Part shown: positions 195 through 42,515 of the stretch, one piece after another
Position numbering within the stretch: position 1 is the stretch's first letter
Layout of the letters: every line of letters begins with the position of its first letter
Position numbers and translations under genes: made by a program
The notes under the pieces: model-generated
Told to the model about the DNA's origin: nothing
Database searches by the model: none
What the model saw: only the letters and a program-made list of their open reading frames with translations
NCBI RefSeq assembly: GCF_900091475.1
Contig: NZ_FMIB01000002.1
Coordinates: 2,914,001-2,978,000 of the forward strand
Source: Micromonospora chersina
GTDB taxonomy: Bacteria; Actinomycetota; Actinomycetes; Mycobacteriales; Micromonosporaceae
Direction: 5' to 3'
Length of the DNA stretch: 64,000 bases

Positions 195-201
195 CGCCAC
201 C

Positions 202-1209
202 TCACTCGTACGACTCGGGCTTCGCGGTCCGGCTCATGAGGGCGTCCACGGCGAGCCGCGGGTCCATCCCCTCGTGGCAGATCCGCTCGATCTGCTCGGT
301 GATCGGCATCTCCACACCGTGCGCCCGGGCCAGGTCACGGATGGCCAGGCAGCTCTTCACGCCCTCGGCGGTCTGCCGGGTGGCCGCCTGGGCCTGCTCC
401 AGGGTCTCCCCCCGGCCCAGGTGCTCGCCGAAGGTGCGGTTGCGGGCCAGGGGCGACGAGCAGGAGGCGACCAGGTCGCCCATGCCGGCCAGCCCGGCGA
501 AGGTGATCGGGTCGGCGCCCAGCGCCACGCCCAGCCGGGCGGTCTCGGCCAGGCCGCGGGTCATGAGCATGGCCCGGGTGTTGTCGCCGAAGCCCATGGC
601 CGTGGCGATGCCGTACGACAGCGCGATCACGTTCTTCACCGCACCGCCCAGCTCGCAGCCGATCACGTCGTCGTTGGTGTACGGCCGGAAGTACGGCGTC
701 CGGATCGACGACTGGACCAGCGCGGTCCGGCGGCTGTCGGTGCCGGCCACCACTGTCGCGGCCGGCTGCTCGGCGGCGATCTCCGGTGCCAGGTTGGGCC
801 CGGAGACGACCACCACCCGGTCGGCCGGCACCCCGGCGGTCTCCATGATCACCTGGCTCATCCGCTTCGTGGTGCCCAGCTCGATGCCCTTCATGAGGGA
901 GACCAGCGTGGCGTCGGCGTCCAGGTACGGGGTCCAGTCGGCGAGGTTGGCGCGCAGCGTCTGCGACGGCACGGACAGCACCACCACCTCGGCCCCGGCG
1001 ATCGCCTCCTCGGCGTCACCGGTCGCGGTGACCCGGTCGGGCAGCCGCACGTCGGGCAGGTAGTCCGGGTTGTGCCGCCCGGTCCGGATGGCCTCGGCCA
1101 CCGAGGCGCGCCGGGCCAGGATGGTCACGTCCCGGCCGGCGTCGGCGAGGATCTTGGCGAACGCGGTGCCCCACGAGCCCGCTCCCAGCACGGCGACGTG
1201 CCCGCTCAT
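202..1209 (-). CDS. gpsA: NAD(P)-dependent glycerol-3-phosphate dehydrogenase
   Basis: 335 aa, the usual length for GpsA. It makes sn-glycerol 3-phosphate from dihydroxyacetone phosphate for phospholipid synthesis in the cytosol. The N-terminus [18 protein letters not shown] carries the GxGxxG dinucleotide-binding loop. Downstream are [11 protein letters not shown] and the substrate-domain segment [15 protein letters not shown] with the catalytic lysine, then the conserved GLAGMGDL stretch. The start codon overlaps the plsC stop as ATGA, implying translational coupling. The pairing with plsC puts two successive steps of phosphatidic-acid synthesis in one operon. A longer upstream reading frame in this frame is an antisense artefact. 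Confidence 0.95.
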
Positions 1210-1931
1210 TCGGTCACCTCGGGCGTACGCGTCCGGGCCGGCCGCTCCCACAGCGGTGGTGGCGTGCCGCCGCGGATCTCGGCCACGAGGTCCCGGATCC
1301 GCAGCATGATCGTGTCGGTCATCTCCTCCAGGATCGCCCGGGTCGGCGTGGCGCCCGCAAACCGGCTCAGGTCGATCGGCGGCCCGGCGACAACCGTCAC
1401 CGGCGTACGCGGGCGCAGCCCGATGCGGGCGGTCCGCGGGTCGAACATCTTCTCCGGGCCCACCATGGCGACCGGGATCACCGGGGCGCCGGTGGCCAGC
1501 GCCAGCCGGGCCGCGCCGGTCTTGCCCTTCATGGGCCACAGGTCCGGCTCCCGGGTGGTGGTCCCCTCCGGGTAGATCACCACCGCGCCGCCCTCGTTGA
1601 GCGCGGCGACCAGCTTGTCCAGCGACTTGACCGCCTCGACGCTGCCGCGCTCGACCGGGATCTGCTTGCAGCGGTGCAGGATCCACCCGATCACCGGCAC
1701 CTTGAACACGCTGGCCTTGCCGAGGAACTGCGGCCAGCGCCCCGAGTCGTAGATGAAGTGCGCGGACACCAGCGGATCCGCGTGCGAGATGTGGTTGGGC
1801 ACGATGATGATGCCGCCGTCGCGGCGCAGGTGTTCCATTCCCCGCCAGGTGCGCCGCGTCCAGACGGTCAACACCGGCTTCACCAGCACCACGGCGAACC
1901 GTGGCCAGAATCCCAGCCTCCGCGGTGCCAC
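1206..1931 (-). CDS. plsC: 1-acyl-sn-glycerol-3-phosphate acyltransferase
   Basis: 241 aa starting at GTG, preceded by a GGAGG ribosome-binding site a few bases upstream. It transfers an acyl chain to lysophosphatidic acid at the membrane. The acyltransferase motif is read as NHISHAD (the HX4D catalytic pair, near residue 45). The glycerophosphate-binding motif is YPEGTTT (about residue 115), and PVIPVAMVG follows. The N-terminus is basic and hydrophobic ([17 protein letters not shown]), consistent with membrane association. It is followed immediately by gpsA with ATGA overlap. The divergent cofC start lies 112 bp away, so both promoters share this gap. Confidence 0.9.
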
Positions 1932-26635: not shown

Positions 26636-28216
26636 TCAGACCCGCGCCCGGTCCAGGCCGTAGGTGAGGGCGTCGACCAGGGCGTGCCAGCTGGCCTCGA
26701 CCACGTTGGGGTGGACGCCGACAGTGGTCCAGTCGCGGCCGGCCCCGGCGGTCTCCACGAGCACCCGGGTCACCGCGCCGGTGCCGTGGCTGCCCTCCAG
26801 GATGCGGACCTTGTAGTCGGCCAGCTCGAACTCGCGCAGCTCCGGGTAGTGCCGGGCGAGCGCCACCCGCAGCGCCTCGTCGAGGGCGTTGACCGGGCCG
26901 TTCCCCTCGGCGGTGGCGATGACGCGCTCGCCGCGTACCCGGATCTTGACGGTGGCCTCGGAGACCACCGCGCCGTCCTCGCGGTGCTCGACAAGCACCC
27001 GGTAGGACTCCAGCGCGAACGGCCGGGCCGGCGCGGCGTCCGGCAGCTCGGAGCGGACCAGCAGCTCGAACGAGGCGTCGGCGGCCTCGAACGACCAGCC
27101 GCCGGCCTCCAGCTCCTTGACCCTGTTGGTGACCCGGGACAGGGCGTCCGGATGGCCGGCCAGGTCCAGGCCCAGCTCGCGGCTCTTGAGCTCGACGCTG
27201 GCCCGGCCGGCCATCTCGGTCACCAGGATCCGCATGTCGTTGCCCACCACCGAGGGATCCACGTGGTTGTAGAGCAACGGGTCGACCTTGATCGCGCTCG
27301 CGTGCAGCCCCGCCTTGTGGGCGAAGGCGGCGGCCCCGACGTAGGCCTGGTGGGTGTCGGGGGCGATGTTGGCGATCTCGGCGATGGCGTGCGAGACCCG
27401 CACCATCTGTTCCAGGCAGCCCTCCGGTAGGACGGGCATGCCGAGCTTGAGTTGGAGGTTGGCCACGATCGCGAACAGGTCGGCGTTGCCGGGGCGCTCG
27501 CCGTACCCGTTGGCGGTGCCCTGGACGTGCCGGACGCCGGCCTCGACCGCGGCGATCGTGTTGGCCACCGCGCAGGCGGTGTCGTTCTGGGCGTGCATGC
27601 CGAGCCGTTCGGGGGCGATCCCGGTGCGGGCGGCGAGGTCGGTGATCGCGGCGGTGACCTGGGAGGGCAGCATCCCGCCGTTGGTGTCGCAGAGGACGAA
27701 CCGTTCGGCGCCGGCGGCCAGCGCGGTCTCCGCCACCGCGGCGGTGTACGCCGGGTCGTACCGGTGACCGTCGTAGAAGTGCTCGCCGTCGACGAAGACC
27801 CGCCGCCCCTGCGCCACCAGGTACGCGACCGTGTCCCGGATCATCGCCAGGTTCTCGTCGGCGGTGGTGCGCAGCGCCCGCTCGACGTGCCGCAGGTCCG
27901 CCTTGGCGACGAGCGCCACGGCCGGGGTGCCCGCGTCCAGCAGCCCGCGCACCTGCGGGTCGTCCTCGACCGCGACGCCGGCCTTGCGGGTGGCCCCGAA
28001 GGCGACCAGGACCGCGTGCCGCAGTTCCAGTTCGGTGCGGGCCCGGCGGAAGAACTCGGTGTCCTTGGGCACCGCGCCCGGCCAGCCGCCCTCGATGAAG
28101 CCGACCCCGAGGTCGTCGAGGAGGCGGGCCACCGCCAGCTTGTCGACCACCGAGTAGCTGAGCCCCTCGCGCTGGGCGCCGTCGCGCAGCGTCGTGTCGT
28201 ACACCTGGAAGGTCAT
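26636..28216 (-). CDS. cimA: Citramalate synthase
   Basis: 526 aa from ATG with GAGGAA upstream. It condenses pyruvate with acetyl-CoA to (R)-citramalate, the threonine-independent entry to isoleucine synthesis. The N-terminal TIM barrel reads YDTTLRDGAQREGLSYSV, GFIEGGWPGAVPKD, CDTNGGMLPSQV and the metal-binding HAQNDTACAVANT. The linker has HKAGLHASAIKVD. The C-terminal LeuA-dimer regulatory domain covers about 400-526. TLRDGAQREG and the overall length fit the CimA branch rather than LeuA. An attenuator-like leader lies between 28251 and 28343. The EEP gene ends 7 bp away, convergent. Confidence 0.93.
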   Translation of the reverse strand: MTFQVYDTTLRDGAQREGLSYSVVDKLAVARLLDDLGVGFIEGGWPGAVPKDTEFFRRARTELELRHAVLVAFGATRKAGVAVEDDPQVRGLLDAGTPAVALVAKADLRHVERALRTTADENLAMIRDTVAYLVAQGRRVFVDGEHFYDGHRYDPAYTAAVAETALAAGAERFVLCDTNGGMLPSQVTAAITDLAARTGIAPERLGMHAQNDTACAVANTIAAVEAGVRHVQGTANGYGERPGNADLFAIVANLQLKLGMPVLPEGCLEQMVRVSHAIAEIANIAPDTHQAYVGAAAFAHKAGLHASAIKVDPLLYNHVDPSVVGNDMRILVTEMAGRASVELKSRELGLDLAGHPDALSRVTNRVKELEAGGWSFEAADASFELLVRSELPDAAPARPFALESYRVLVEHREDGAVVSEATVKIRVRGERVIATAEGNGPVNALDEALRVALARHYPELREFELADYKVRILEGSHGTGAVTRVLVETAGAGRDWTTVGVHPNVVEASWHALVDALTYGLDRARV

Positions 28217-28250
28217 GGGAGTTCCTCTTCTCGAACCTGGGGGGAGCAAC

Positions 28251-28280
28251 AAAAAGACCCCCCGCGGATGCGGGAGGTCT
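28251..28280 (-). terminator. Intrinsic terminator inside the cimA leader (attenuator)
   Basis: On the minus strand an 11-bp stem (28270-28280 with 28255-28265, one G-U pair) and a 4-nt loop are followed by a U-tract (AAAAA on the plus strand at 28251-28255, one base of which is in the stem). It lies 35 nt upstream of the cimA start, after the leader peptide and hairpin 1, so reading through it is required for cimA expression. Confidence 0.85.
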
Positions 28281-28311
28281 GCGCGCTCGGCGAGAGGGAA
28301 GGCCGGCGCGC
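28281..28311 (-). promoter_or_regulatory. Hairpin 1 of the cimA attenuator
   Basis: Arms 28302-28311 (GCGCGCCGGC on the minus strand) and 28281-28291 pair over 10 bp with one bulged A. The outermost base is the last base of the leader-peptide stop codon, and the terminator stem begins on the next base (28280). A ribosome at the stop codon would melt this hairpin, while one stalled at the Val-Leu-Ile-Ile codons would not. Confidence 0.7.
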
Positions 28312-28343
28312 TAGCTGCCAATAATGAGGACGGAGCTGGTCAC
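28311..28343 (-). CDS. cimA leader peptide (Val-Leu-Ile-Ile)
   Basis: A 10-residue ORF reads MTSSVLIIGS and ends TAG. Four consecutive branched-chain residues are encoded by GTC CTC ATT ATT. ATT looks rare here, since Ile in the neighbouring genes is nearly always ATC. The GTG start is 7 nt after CAGAGT (minus strand, 28351-28356), so the transcript probably begins at or next to the start codon. Its position before a hairpin and a terminator is that of a ribosome-mediated attenuator sensing charged tRNA-Ile/Val/Leu. Confidence 0.8.
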   Translation of the reverse strand: MTSSVLIIGS

Positions 28344-28524
28344 GGCTCGTACTCTGCCACCCCGCACCGGTTTTGGGAGGCGAAATCCACATCGCGGGAC
28401 GGGCCCGTGATCGGGTTAACACGGCGCCCGCCCGGCGTCCGGCGGGAACCGGCCTGGGGAAGCATCTGGAACAGATCAAGTTACCGGCCTGGCGTCGTCG
28501 CCCGGCCGCCGTCAAGGAGGACCC

Positions 28525-29085
28525 GTGCTCACTGTCGGTGACCGCTTCCCCGAGTACGAACTCACCGCCTGCGTCTCCCTCGACGCCGACAAGGCGTTCG
28601 AGACGATCAACCACAAGACCTACGAGGGCAAGTGGCGCGTCGTCTTCTTCTGGCCGAAGGACTTCACCTTCATCTGCCCGACCGAGATCGCCGAGTTCGG
28701 CCGCCTCAACGGCGAGTTCGCCGACCGGGACGCCCAGGTCCTCGGCGTCTCCGTGGACAACGAGTTCGTCCACTACGCCTGGCGCAAGGACCACCCGGAC
28801 CTGCGCGAGCTGCCCTTCCCGATGCTCAGCGACATCAAGCGCGAGCTGACCGCCGACTGCGGCGTGCTCGGTGAGGACGGCGTCGCCCAGCGGGCCACCT
28901 TCATCGTCGACCCGGACAACGAGATCCAGTTCGCCATGGTGACCGCCGGTTCGGTCGGCCGGAACGTCTCCGAGGTGCTGCGGGTGCTCGACGCCCTCCA
29001 GACCGACGAGCTCTGCCCGTGCAACTGGAACAAGGGCGGCGCCACCCTGGACGCCAACGCGCTGCTCGCCGGCGCCGGGGCCTGA
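28525..29085 (+). CDS. ahpC: Alkyl hydroperoxide reductase peroxiredoxin subunit
   Basis: 186 aa from GTG behind AAGGAGG. A typical 2-Cys peroxiredoxin: the peroxidatic Cys is in FTFICPTEIAEF (about residue 51) and the resolving Cys in DELCPCNWNKGG (about 166). It reduces H2O2, organic peroxides and peroxynitrite in the cytosol. ahpD begins 2 bp after its stop. No oxyR or furA gene is adjacent. The 181-bp gap to the cimA leader (28344-28524) must contain the promoter, but I see no clear OxyR site. Confidence 0.95.
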   Translation: MLTVGDRFPEYELTACVSLDADKAFETINHKTYEGKWRVVFFWPKDFTFICPTEIAEFGRLNGEFADRDAQVLGVSVDNEFVHYAWRKDHPDLRELPFPMLSDIKRELTADCGVLGEDGVAQRATFIVDPDNEIQFAMVTAGSVGRNVSEVLRVLDALQTDELCPCNWNKGGATLDANALLAGAGA

Positions 29086-40453: not shown

Positions 40454-42339
40454 CAGAGCTCGTCCTCGTCGAAGGCGGGGCGGACGCCCCGGGCGAACAT
40501 GATCTCGTCGTTGCTGGTGCCGGCGGCGACCATCGGCCACACCATGGCGTCCTTGCCGACCACGAAGTCGATGACCACCGGGGCGTCGGTGATCGCCATG
40601 GCCGCCTCGATGGTCTTGTCCACGTCGGCGGCGTTCTCGCAGCGCAGGCCGACGCAGCCGAGCGCCTCGGCGAGCTTCACGAAGTCCGGGATGCGGTGCT
40701 TGTGGGTGCCCAGCTCCGTGTTGGAGTAGCGCTCCCCGTAGAACAGGGTCTGCCACTGCCGGACCATGCCCAGGTTGCCGTTGTTGATGACGGCGACCTT
40801 GATGGGGATGCCCTCCAGGGCGCAGGTGGCCAGCTCCTGGTTGGTCATCTGGAAGCAGCCGTCACCGTCCACCGCCCAGACCGTCGTGTCCGGCTTGCCG
40901 ACCTTGGCGCCCATCGCCGCCGGGACGGCGTAGCCCATGGTGCCGAGGCCGCCGGAGTTCAGCCAGGTGTACGGCTTCTCGTACGAGATGAACTGGCTGG
41001 CCCACATCTGGTGCTGCCCGACCCCCGCCACGTAGACGGTGTCCGGGCCGGCGATCTCGCCCAGCCGCTTGATCACGTACTGCGGGGAGAGCGTGCCGTC
41101 GGCCGGCTCCTCGTAACCCAGCGGGTAGCGCGCGCGCAGGTCGTCGAGCTGGTTCCACCAGTCGGCGAGGTCGGCGGCCGGCCGGGCCGCCTGCTCGGCG
41201 GTGACGGCCGCGATCAGCTCGTCGATGACGTGCCGGGCGTCGCCCACGATCGGGACGTCGGCGTGCCGGTTCTTGCCGATCTCGGCCGGGTCGATGTCGG
41301 CGTGCACCACTGTGGCGTCCGGCGCGAACGAGTCCAGCTTGCCGGTGACCCGGTCGTCGAAGCGGGCGCCCAGCGCCACGATCAGGTCGGACTTCTGGAG
41401 GCCGTAGACCGCCGCGACGGTGCCGTGCATGCCGGGCATGCCCAGGTGCTGCCGGTGCGAGTCGGGGAACGCGCCGAGCGCCATGAGGGTGGTGACCACC
41501 GGGATGCCGGTCAGCTCGGCCAGCCGGCGCAGCCCCTCGGTGGCGCCGGCCTTCAGCACGCCGCCGCCGACGTAGAGCACCGGGCGGCGGGCGCCGGTCA
41601 TCAGCCGGGCCGCCTCGCGGATCTGCTTGCCGTGCGGGTGCAGGGTGGGCCGGTAGCCGGGCAGGTCCAGGGTGGGCGGCCAGGTGAAGGTGGTCGGCGC
41701 CTGGAGGACGTCCTTGGGGATGTCGACCAGGACCGGGCCGGGCCGACCGGTCGAGGCCAGGTGGAACGCCTCGGCGAGCACCTGCGGGATCTCCTCGGCC
41801 GTCTGCACCAGGAAGTTGTGCTTGGTGATCGGCAGGGTGATGCCCTGGATGTCCGCCTCCTGGAAGGCGTCAGTGCCGATCGACGGGCGGGCCACCTGGC
41901 CGGTGATCGCCACCATGGGCACCGAGTCCATGTACGCGTCGGCGATCGGCGTCACCAGGTTCGTCGCGCCCGGGCCGGAGGTGGCGATGCAGACGCCGAC
42001 CTTGCCGGTGGCCTGGGCGTAGCCGGTGGCCGCGTGCCCGGCGCCCTGCTCGTGGCGGACCAGGATGTGCCGCACCGTCGAGTCGTAGAGCGGGTCGTAC
42101 GCCGGCAGGATCGCACCGCCCGGGATGCCGAAGACGACGTCGACGCCGAGCGCCTCGAGCGACCGCACCAGCGATCCGGCACCGGAGACCGGCGCCGGGT
42201 CCGGCTGCCGTACGGCCGGCGAGGCCGGGGTGGCTCCGGTGCGGGGGGCGGGGGCGTGGTCGGCGTCGCCGGCCGGCTCGGTGGCCGGGCGGGCTCGCCG
42301 GACGGAGTGGGCGAGGGTCTCTGGCGTGGGTCTCGTCAT
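40453..42339 (-). CDS. ilvB: Acetolactate synthase large subunit
   Basis: 628 aa from ATG 42339. Thiamine-diphosphate enzyme that makes acetolactate and acetohydroxybutyrate. After an Ala/Pro-rich N-terminal extension of about 50 residues, the core runs through [32 protein letters not shown] (catalytic Glu), [18 protein letters not shown] and LDLPGYRPT. The TPP-binding motif [17 protein letters not shown] is followed by VINNGNLGM. It heads the ilvBNC operon. An attenuator leader occupies 42421-42515. The 140-nt leader and the promoter overlap the 3' end of the upstream GGDEF-EAL gene. Confidence 0.96.
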
Positions 42340-42420: not shown

Positions 42421-42452
42421 CAAAAACGGCCCACGTGCAGATGCACGGGGCC
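42421..42452 (-). terminator. Intrinsic terminator in the ilvB leader (attenuator)
   Basis: On the minus strand GGCCCCGTGCA pairs with TGCACGTGGGCC (one bulged T), followed by GTTTTTG. It lies right after hairpin 1 and 81 nt upstream of the ilvB start. Confidence 0.85.
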
Positions 42453-42480
42453 AGCGCACTCTCGTTCGGGAGAGTGCGCT
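42453..42480 (-). promoter_or_regulatory. Hairpin 1 of the ilvB attenuator
   Basis: Perfect 11-bp stem (42470-42480 with 42453-42463) and a 6-nt loop. Its first base is the last base of the leader-peptide stop codon, and the terminator begins on the next base after it. This is the same arrangement as at cimA. Confidence 0.8.
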
Positions 42481-42515
42481 CAGGTAAGTACTCGCAGCGA
42501 CCGGTTCGACGACAT
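42480..42515 (-). CDS. ilvB leader peptide (Leu-Arg-Val-Leu-Thr)
   Basis: An 11-residue ORF, MSSNRSLRVLT, ends in TGA. The sensing codons are CTG CGA GTA CTT; GTA and CTT look rare in this GC-rich genome. The ATG is 7 nt after the -10 hexamer CAGGCT, so the transcript is expected to start at or next to the leader ATG. Position and composition are those of ilvB leader peptides of other actinobacteria. Confidence 0.82.
   Translation of the reverse strand: MSSNRSLRVLT

Follow-up and report, generated by a model that had tools for sequence, protein, structure and literature searches.

The cimA locus and the parts of its leader RNA

The window analysed here is the whole 64,000-nt stretch of Micromonospora chersina DNA. 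Within it the citramalate synthase gene cimA lies on the minus strand at 26636–28216 (526 aa) and is identified by a TIGR00977 match of 607.7 bits against a cut-off of 450. Citramalate synthase opens a threonine-independent route to isoleucine. Among the matches listed in our scan for the exact terminator pattern of this locus, the closest cimA from a named genome is that of M. fulviviridis (99% identity, 489 residues). The neighbour of cimA is a divergent peroxiredoxin gene on the plus strand (28525–29085).

Reading along the minus strand towards cimA, a CAGAGT hexamer (28356–28351) is followed after a 7-nt spacer by a leader ORF of 10 codons (28311–28343, minus strand), conserved in the family, which starts with GTG and encodes MTSSVLIIGS. 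Its codons are GTG ACC AGC TCC GTC CTC ATT ATT GGC AGC TAG (28343–28311), and the ATT ATT pair at 28325–28320 (minus strand) supplies the candidate control codons. The last G of the stop codon is also the first base of a 10-bp hairpin with one bulge, hereafter hairpin A (GCGCGCCGGC / GCCGAGCGCGC; 28281–28311, minus strand), which is supported by folds, by its presence across the family and by compensatory changes in its basal stem. A single A separates it from the adjoining intrinsic terminator hairpin T (28255–28280, minus strand), recovered both by folding and by a terminator scan. The stem of T comprises 11 pairs (28279–28256, or 28280–28255 counting an A-U pair) and leads into the U-tract TTTTTGTTG (28247–28255, minus strand), and the ATG of cimA, at 28216, lies 30 nt past the end of the U-tract at 28247. 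A sequence-only reading of this DNA had already proposed such an arrangement, with a 10-codon ORF 7 nt after CAGAGT, a stop codon at the base of a 10-bp hairpin (A) and an intrinsic terminator with a U-tract before a gene that it called cimA, and every one of these elements was confirmed. In the terminator scan, T is the sole terminator-like site in 28180–28540, where shuffled sequences give a mean of 0.3, and the leader folds at −47.4 kcal/mol compared with −31.95 ± 3.28 for shuffles (z = −4.71).

CAGAGT reads best as part of a putative extended −10 promoter element of the form TGG-CANNNT (TGG-CAGAGT, 28351–28359, minus strand), given its sequence and the conservation of a box at this place, 7 nt before the leader start codon. 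The cimA leader transcript would then be leaderless and start at the GTG itself. A sigma-70 promoter scan requiring a −35 box found nothing. Micromonospora and some of its relatives also share a conserved ATGTGGATT...CTCCCA block (28374–28392 of the window, minus strand), which lies some 18–36 nt before the −10 box and is possibly a regulator site or a −35 site. Since the peroxiredoxin gene is divergent, T is not the terminator of an upstream gene, and only a promoter serving cimA can feed it.

None of the families in Rfam 15, T-box, leader and riboswitch families included, matches the leader at its gathering score. The best sub-threshold matches reach 19.8 bits (gathering score 58.8) and 17.2 bits (gathering score 50), and the same scan over the 64-kb window returned three tRNAs only. 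A T-box, a riboswitch or another catalogued RNA was accordingly rejected as the identity of the leader.

Conservation and distribution of the leader

We found cimA in all 121 genomes of the genus and in 247 of 250 genomes of the family (Micromonosporaceae), from which 139 usable cimA upstream regions were assembled (30 + 79 + 30 loci, the window's own included). L087 was dropped, as the stretch taken for it contains no cimA start. All 139 carry the leader ORF, hairpin A and T, with hairpin A read by eye in L088, L099 and L138, where the automatic folds are artefacts of more than 60 nt, and with the terminators of L054, L058, L081 and L082, which the automatic fold filter missed, added by hand. 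The leader ORF starts with GTG at 134 loci and with ATG at 5, the start codon being uncertain at L121, L123 and L128 (the last excluded from alignment A1). At 123 of the 139 loci exactly 7 nt separate a [CT]ANNNT box from the start codon of the leader, and because of this fixed distance of a −10-like box we set aside a promoter farther upstream whose G-rich RNA might pair with T. The sequence-only reading had also named transcription beginning beyond the terminator as grounds for refutation; the position of the box speaks indirectly against such a start.

What the leader peptide conserves is its isoleucine pair. The sequence-only reading had described a Val-Leu-Ile-Ile run and named the lack of such conservation in related genomes as grounds for refutation. 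The short ORF is present throughout the family set, and the Ile-Ile half of the run is kept in the peptides of 130 of the 139 leaders (9 are without it); the Val-Leu half drifts, the residues before Ile-Ile being VL, AL, VQ, VS, AR or HP. Chance is ruled out by this conservation as the source of the Ile pair. The dicodon is ATTATT in 103 family leaders, ATCATT in 15 and ATTATC in 9, with a further 12 leaders that have another dicodon or none assigned. ATT fills 245 of 278 control positions versus 1 of 83 Ile codons in six genes of the window; the rarity of ATT suggested by the sequence-only reading is thus borne out. A set of 30 close cimA genes, among them that of the window, likewise has no ATT at any of its 462 Ile codons. 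At the level of the class, two or more consecutive Ile codons occur in 65 of 76 cimA leaders and a single Ile codon at that place in the other 11, with 91 ATT versus 77 ATC in the leaders and 33 ATT among the 990 Ile codons of their cimA genes. Judging from these codons, the leader most likely senses isoleucine in particular and not the branched-chain residues as a group, and a slowly read ATT codon may sharpen the response.

The spacing of the parts is also held. In 123 of the 139 family leaders 8 nt lie between the end of the Ile dicodon and stem A, and the gap between A and T is 1 nt in 134 of the 139 and in 72 of 80 class-level rows. Family stop codons begin 2 nt before stem A in 125 of 139 leaders and lie at or beyond its first base in the other 14, three of these owing to artefact folds. 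Among the 80 class rows, 54 stop codons begin 2–4 nt before stem A, 25 lie 10–16 nt inside it and 1 is unplaced. We observed loss or displacement of the stop codon beside stem A at L262, L303, L330, L334, L137–L140 and loci of family f15 such as L177. In these leaders the ORF enters hairpin A and ends inside it, and the spacing from Ile to the stem is about unchanged.

Both hairpins vary in a compensatory manner. In the basal stem of A, a change in one strand is matched in the other (GGCGTTC/GAACGCC in L139, CGCAC/GTGCG in L104 and L110), T shows AACC/GGTT in L130, and in alignment A1, built from 39 family leaders, compensatory changes affect 8 of 15 consensus pairs. In the 80 class-level rows, which were fitted to the model and are therefore biased towards the modelled structure, 62 cells are changed on both sides versus 7.4 ± 6.4 in shuffles, and the covariation score is 0.234 versus 0.149 in shuffles and at most 0.115 in slid structures. 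One of the five covariation measures, the number of further pair types in these rows, shows no excess (14 versus 14.0 in shuffles). Four of the five A pairs are invariant in alignment A2, so the covariation evidence for A rests on the family set.

A covariance model built from alignment A1, that is, from the leaders alone (R1), matched 196 of 298 genomes of the order and 214 of 345 genomes of the class. The family to which the window belongs accounts for 54 of the 196 order-level genomes. We fetched 40 order-level hits (all from outside the family) and 40 class-level hits, hand-picked to spread over families. All 40 at the order level lie just upstream of a cimA homologue (63–73% identity), and those at the class level precede cimA in 36 cases, ilvB in 2 (L231, L251) and a small protein in 2 (L236, L237). 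In each of the 76 cimA cases the RNA and the gene share a strand, and the distance from the RNA hit to the start of the cimA match is 21–230 nt in 75 of them (413 nt in L196, where the match begins at residue 136). TIGR00977 marks cimA in 275 of the 345 class genomes, and R1 matches 210 of these 275 versus 4 of the 70 others. The 65 cimA-bearing class genomes without an R1 match count against reading the leader as an attenuator, and so do the 9 family leaders that lack Ile-Ile and the 11 class cimA leaders with a single Ile codon. Named genomes hold the exact terminator pattern at at least 80 loci; among the matches listed, 78 precede cimA, and in the remaining 2 of 80 the sequence ends before any gene is visible. 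Genera with the leader include Micromonospora, Actinoplanes, Pseudonocardia, Amycolatopsis, Lentzea, Kitasatospora, Streptomyces, Jiangella and Kineosporia. Presence of the ORF and terminator throughout the family set, and of the element across the order and the class, supports the earlier description of the region as an attenuator-like leader on cimA.

Two further observations concern this survey. L236 (1501–1597, minus strand) and L237 (1501–1595, minus strand) are second leader copies, encoding MFTPRIII and MFALVIIM, in genomes that also have a cimA leader; the small protein encoded after them has a sub-threshold ACT-domain match and may be a regulatory subunit of the isoleucine pathway. 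Family f8 has neither cimA nor an R1 match in the 20 f8 genomes listed for the class sample, its exceptions being an order-level match in G500 (E = 1.1e-5) and a borderline match in G376 (E = 0.0098) to the second covariance model described below.

Ribosome position, folding and termination

Attenuators of the E. coli trp, his and ilv type combine an upstream ORF rich in the product amino acid with a terminator between that ORF and the gene, and the cimA leader is like them in both respects: it has a run of product-residue codons and a terminator between the ORF and cimA. The two differ in that the E. coli systems have an antiterminator helix and a stalled ribosome that covers the first stem, whereas in the cimA leader a stalled ribosome would leave A folded. 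Our search for an antiterminator sharing a strand with T combined folds of the window leader with a ribosome at seven positions, masking folds of the 136 usable rows of the 139 family rows (L088, L099 and L138 out), duplex energies over 127 distinct leaders, and direct extension of stem A into T. No alternative helix was clearly supported in the seven-position folds, the ten strand-pair duplexes or the extension of A, in keeping with the remark in the sequence-only reading that an antiterminator pairing is not obvious by eye.

In the masking folds, the basal stem of A forms in 136 of 136 leaders when the ribosome is placed on the first Ile codon, in 124 of 136 at the second and in 0 of 136 at the stop codon. 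T forms in 136 of 136 at every ribosome position tried, and it is present throughout in the minimum free energy structure of the window leader. Folding with a ribosome footprint, which the sequence-only reading had put forward as a check, thus changes A and leaves T in every fold. Extension of stem A takes 0 nt of T in 137 of 139 leaders and 1 nt in 2.

The duplex energies compare strands from the same leader (own) with crossed and shuffled strands for ten strand pairs, two of which are positive controls. Both controls stand out within sequences (T5:T3, −19.38 versus −18.40 crossed; A5:A3, −18.98 versus −17.09 crossed). The classical 2:3 helix, A3:T5, is weaker than shuffled (−2.74 versus −5.35), and a classical 2:3 antiterminator is unsupported apart from a weak excess between the ORF and the T3 arm (−11.65 own versus −11.43 ± 0.10 crossed and −10.32 ± 0.19 with shuffled ORFs). 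Pairing of the A loop with T3 (−8.79 own) is stronger than shuffled (−8.46 ± 0.17) and weaker than crossed (−9.03). As no antiterminator helix is supported, the textbook attenuation mechanism is not carried over unchanged. It is quite improbable, in our judgement, that the leader is nevertheless a textbook attenuator whose base-paired antiterminator escaped these searches because it is short, pseudoknotted or dependent on a trans factor. Known relatives are described in such terms, with a pairing of the A loop to the shoulder of T proposed for Corynebacterium ilvB-II in the available text of PMC10272879, and the slight advantages of ORF:T3 over crossed and shuffled strands and of A loop:T3 over shuffled strands point the same way. 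Against this, only the real A and T pairings stand out clearly, the A loop pairs with T3 less well within than between sequences, and T persists in the minimum free energy structure wherever the ribosome is placed.

A and T coexist freely in the folds, so any exclusion between them is not thermodynamic, and since the position of the ribosome toggles A and not T, A must affect T other than through shared bases. One quantity that does change with A is the distance from ribosome to terminator. Assuming a ribosome covering 15–16 nt from the P-site, the distance from the A-site of a ribosome stalled at Ile to T is 7–17 nt with A folded, and the distance from the stop codon to T is 20–61 nt with A open. 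Across the 211 leaders compared (135 of the 139 family leaders and 76 class leaders), these ranges stay apart.

Comparison and folding establish the parts of the leader, their conservation, their fixed spacings and a ribosome that toggles A and not T. On these grounds the attenuator itself appears well supported, and from the control codons we infer a response to isoleucine. We think it likely that the cimA leader is a ribosome-controlled transcription attenuator in which A serves as a collapsible spacer and which would turn cimA on when charged tRNA-Ile is scarce. Transcription would start at the leader GTG, and a ribosome would translate the 10-codon ORF behind RNA polymerase. With isoleucine plentiful, the ribosome would reach the stop codon and cover the 5′ strand of A, which would stay open; about 33 nt of slack RNA would then lie between the stop codon and T, T would close and transcription would stop. 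With isoleucine short, the ribosome would presumably wait at ATT-ATT with its leading edge at the foot of A, allowing A to fold and thereby shrinking the distance from the ribosomal A-site to T to about 12–15 nt. At that distance the ribosome would keep the base of T from closing, and the polymerase would read on into cimA.

The last of these steps, in which folded A and a stalled ribosome together hold T open, is put forward tentatively and may well prove otherwise. For E. coli in vivo, the available text of PMC4824070 reports that termination fell from about 90% to below 10% when a stop codon 28 bp ahead of a terminator was shifted to 5 bp ahead of it, and deduces that 10–15 free nt are necessary between the A-site and the hairpin, a limit that derives from E. 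coli and another terminator. The stalled distances of 7–17 nt lie at or around this limit and not clearly below it, so that the fit with the spacer model is suggestive and not proof.

A possible though rather unlikely alternative for this step is that A alone is the antiterminator, folded A excluding the adjacent T through hindrance in the exit channel or strand migration, with the ribosome serving only to open A at the stop codon. The 1-nt gap between A and T in most family and class rows speaks for it, and so do two published models. For C. glutamicum ilvBNC, a three-hairpin attenuator, the available text of PMC11857589 places antiterminator and terminator bases next to each other with an overlap of three nucleotides; this system and Corynebacterium ilvB-II (PMC10272879) resemble the cimA leader in having a branched-chain upstream ORF and an antiterminator-type hairpin beside the terminator. 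For M. tuberculosis ilvB1, the model proposed in PMC13236596, as far as its available text goes, likewise has a ribosome at the stop codon mask an upstream antiterminator hairpin that a stalled ribosome permits to form; it differs from the cimA leader in that two mutually exclusive structures are described, in its 166-nt leader and in its gene, ilvB1. Antiterminator and terminator share a trinucleotide in C. glutamicum ilvBNC, whereas stem A takes no T nucleotide in 137 of the 139 family leaders and one in the other 2; the cimA leader thus lacks the overlap on which the C. glutamicum model depends. Nor has a mechanism resting on A alone any need of the strict spacing from the Ile codons to A.

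Leaders of the same type at other genes and known attenuators

A second covariance model (R2) was trained on the 80 class rows, which include 2 ilvB leaders, and was run over the 64-kb window. It recovered the cimA leader (94.5 bits, E = 8.4e-30), a second match at 42510–42420 on the minus strand (29.7 bits, E = 1.1e-7) and a third that is the complement of T (14.7 bits). The second match lies upstream of ilvB, the gene for the acetolactate synthase large subunit (40498–42186, bounds of the family match, minus strand; TIGR00118, 774.2 bits, above cut-off). There, 7 nt after CAGGCT, a leader ORF running from ATG to TGA (42480–42515, minus strand) encodes MSSNRSLRVLT; a hairpin A′ begins in its stop codon (42453–42480, minus strand), and a terminator hairpin adjoins A′ (42428–42452, minus strand) and is followed by GTTTTTG, both hairpins being placed by reading the sequence and by the R2 alignment. 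Judged by its sequence, this ilvB leader belongs to one type with the cimA leader, sharing its three parts, their order and their spacing.

Across the phylum, R2 matched 87 of 246 genomes. Twenty hits, hand-picked to include second hits, precede ilvB (14), cimA (2), leuA (1), leuB (1), leuS (1) and an isocitrate lyase gene (1). The control residues track the downstream gene, with Ile runs at cimA, mixtures of Val, Leu and Ile at ilvB, and LLL at leuA and leuS, as in the LLL codons of L393 before leuS. One of the hits upstream of ilvB, L392, encodes exactly the IlvL peptide of S. lividans, MRTRILVLGKRVG, which is reported in the available text of PMC8079986 to be transcribed leaderless.

The tracking of control residues bears on another reading of the locus, a constitutive early terminator that does no more than fix the basal level of cimA or give rise to a small RNA, its Ile codons being incidental and isoleucine having no effect. 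The exchange of putative regulatory codons in the S. coelicolor ilvB leader, which left regulation unchanged according to earlier work cited in the available text of PMC1262725, would suit such a reading and weighs against the preferred one. We regard it as very improbable, because control residues change with the downstream gene, the rare ATT-ATT pair is held at a fixed distance from A while nearby codons drift, and stop codons are sited so that a ribosome there covers A.

The ribosome-controlled attenuator preferred here has several known relatives in actinobacteria. The Streptomyces ilvB leader (ilvL; S. lividans, PMC8079986, available text) shares a short leaderless branched-chain upstream ORF, hairpins and an intrinsic terminator, and differs in its gene and in a mixture of Ile, Leu and Val where the cimA leader has Ile-Ile. 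The Streptomyces leuS attenuators (Seliverstov et al. 2005, PMC1262725; LeuL2 in S. lividans, PMC8079986; available text of both) also join a leader peptide to a terminator, and differ in responding to leucine, in serving a tRNA synthetase gene and in having predicted antiterminator hairpins (PMC1262725). Unlike the actinobacterial leuA LEU element, in which, by the available text of PMC1262725, a leucine codon run pairs with the Shine-Dalgarno box in a pseudoknot, the cimA leader has Ile-Ile and no leucine run and ends in a U-tract terminator. Seliverstov et al. 2005 predict RNA elements for trp, trpS, cys, ilvB, leuS, leuA and ileS, and cimA is absent from those in the available text (PMC1262725); the reannotation of S. 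lividans lists eight leader peptides and makes no mention of cimA or citramalate in its main text, so far as available (PMC8079986). Among the matches listed in the literature searched, we found no report of a cimA attenuator or leader peptide and no description of the control of cimA in actinobacteria, in keeping with the sequence-only reading, which pointed to no described case for actinobacterial cimA. Relative to known ribosome-mediated attenuation, the cimA leader is new in its gene, in its wide distribution, and in that the defining antiterminator was tested for and not found.

We raise, as a doubtful generalisation, that these leaders represent a common actinobacterial attenuator design without an antiterminator: a leaderless upstream ORF, a stem that follows the control codons at roughly the distance of one ribosome footprint, and an abutting terminator. 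The first hairpin would act as a collapsible spacer turning the position of the ribosome into a distance between ribosome and terminator, and a change of control codons would adapt the design to different genes across the phylum, with Ile codons for cimA, a Val/Leu/Ile set for ilvB and Leu codons for leuA and leuS, and to leuB as well. Such a design, lacking an antiterminator altogether, is a possible reason why classical attenuation did not fit the experiments reported for S. coelicolor ilvB. If the spacer model is true, it would constitute another way of coupling translation to intrinsic termination, in an RNA that accompanies cimA in 210 of the 275 cimA-bearing genomes of the class sample and yet is absent from Rfam. 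The cimA leader would further supply industrial actinomycetes with a ready-made switch that responds to isoleucine.

Two of the phylum-level loci stand somewhat apart. At L391 (about 1501–1593, minus strand), the R2 hit upstream of isocitrate lyase (38.7 bits) is without a clear leader peptide. At L390 (about 201–292, plus strand), from another class, an RNA resembling these leaders and apparently encoding Ile-Ile-Ile lies ahead of leuB, after which comes an ilvE-like frame.
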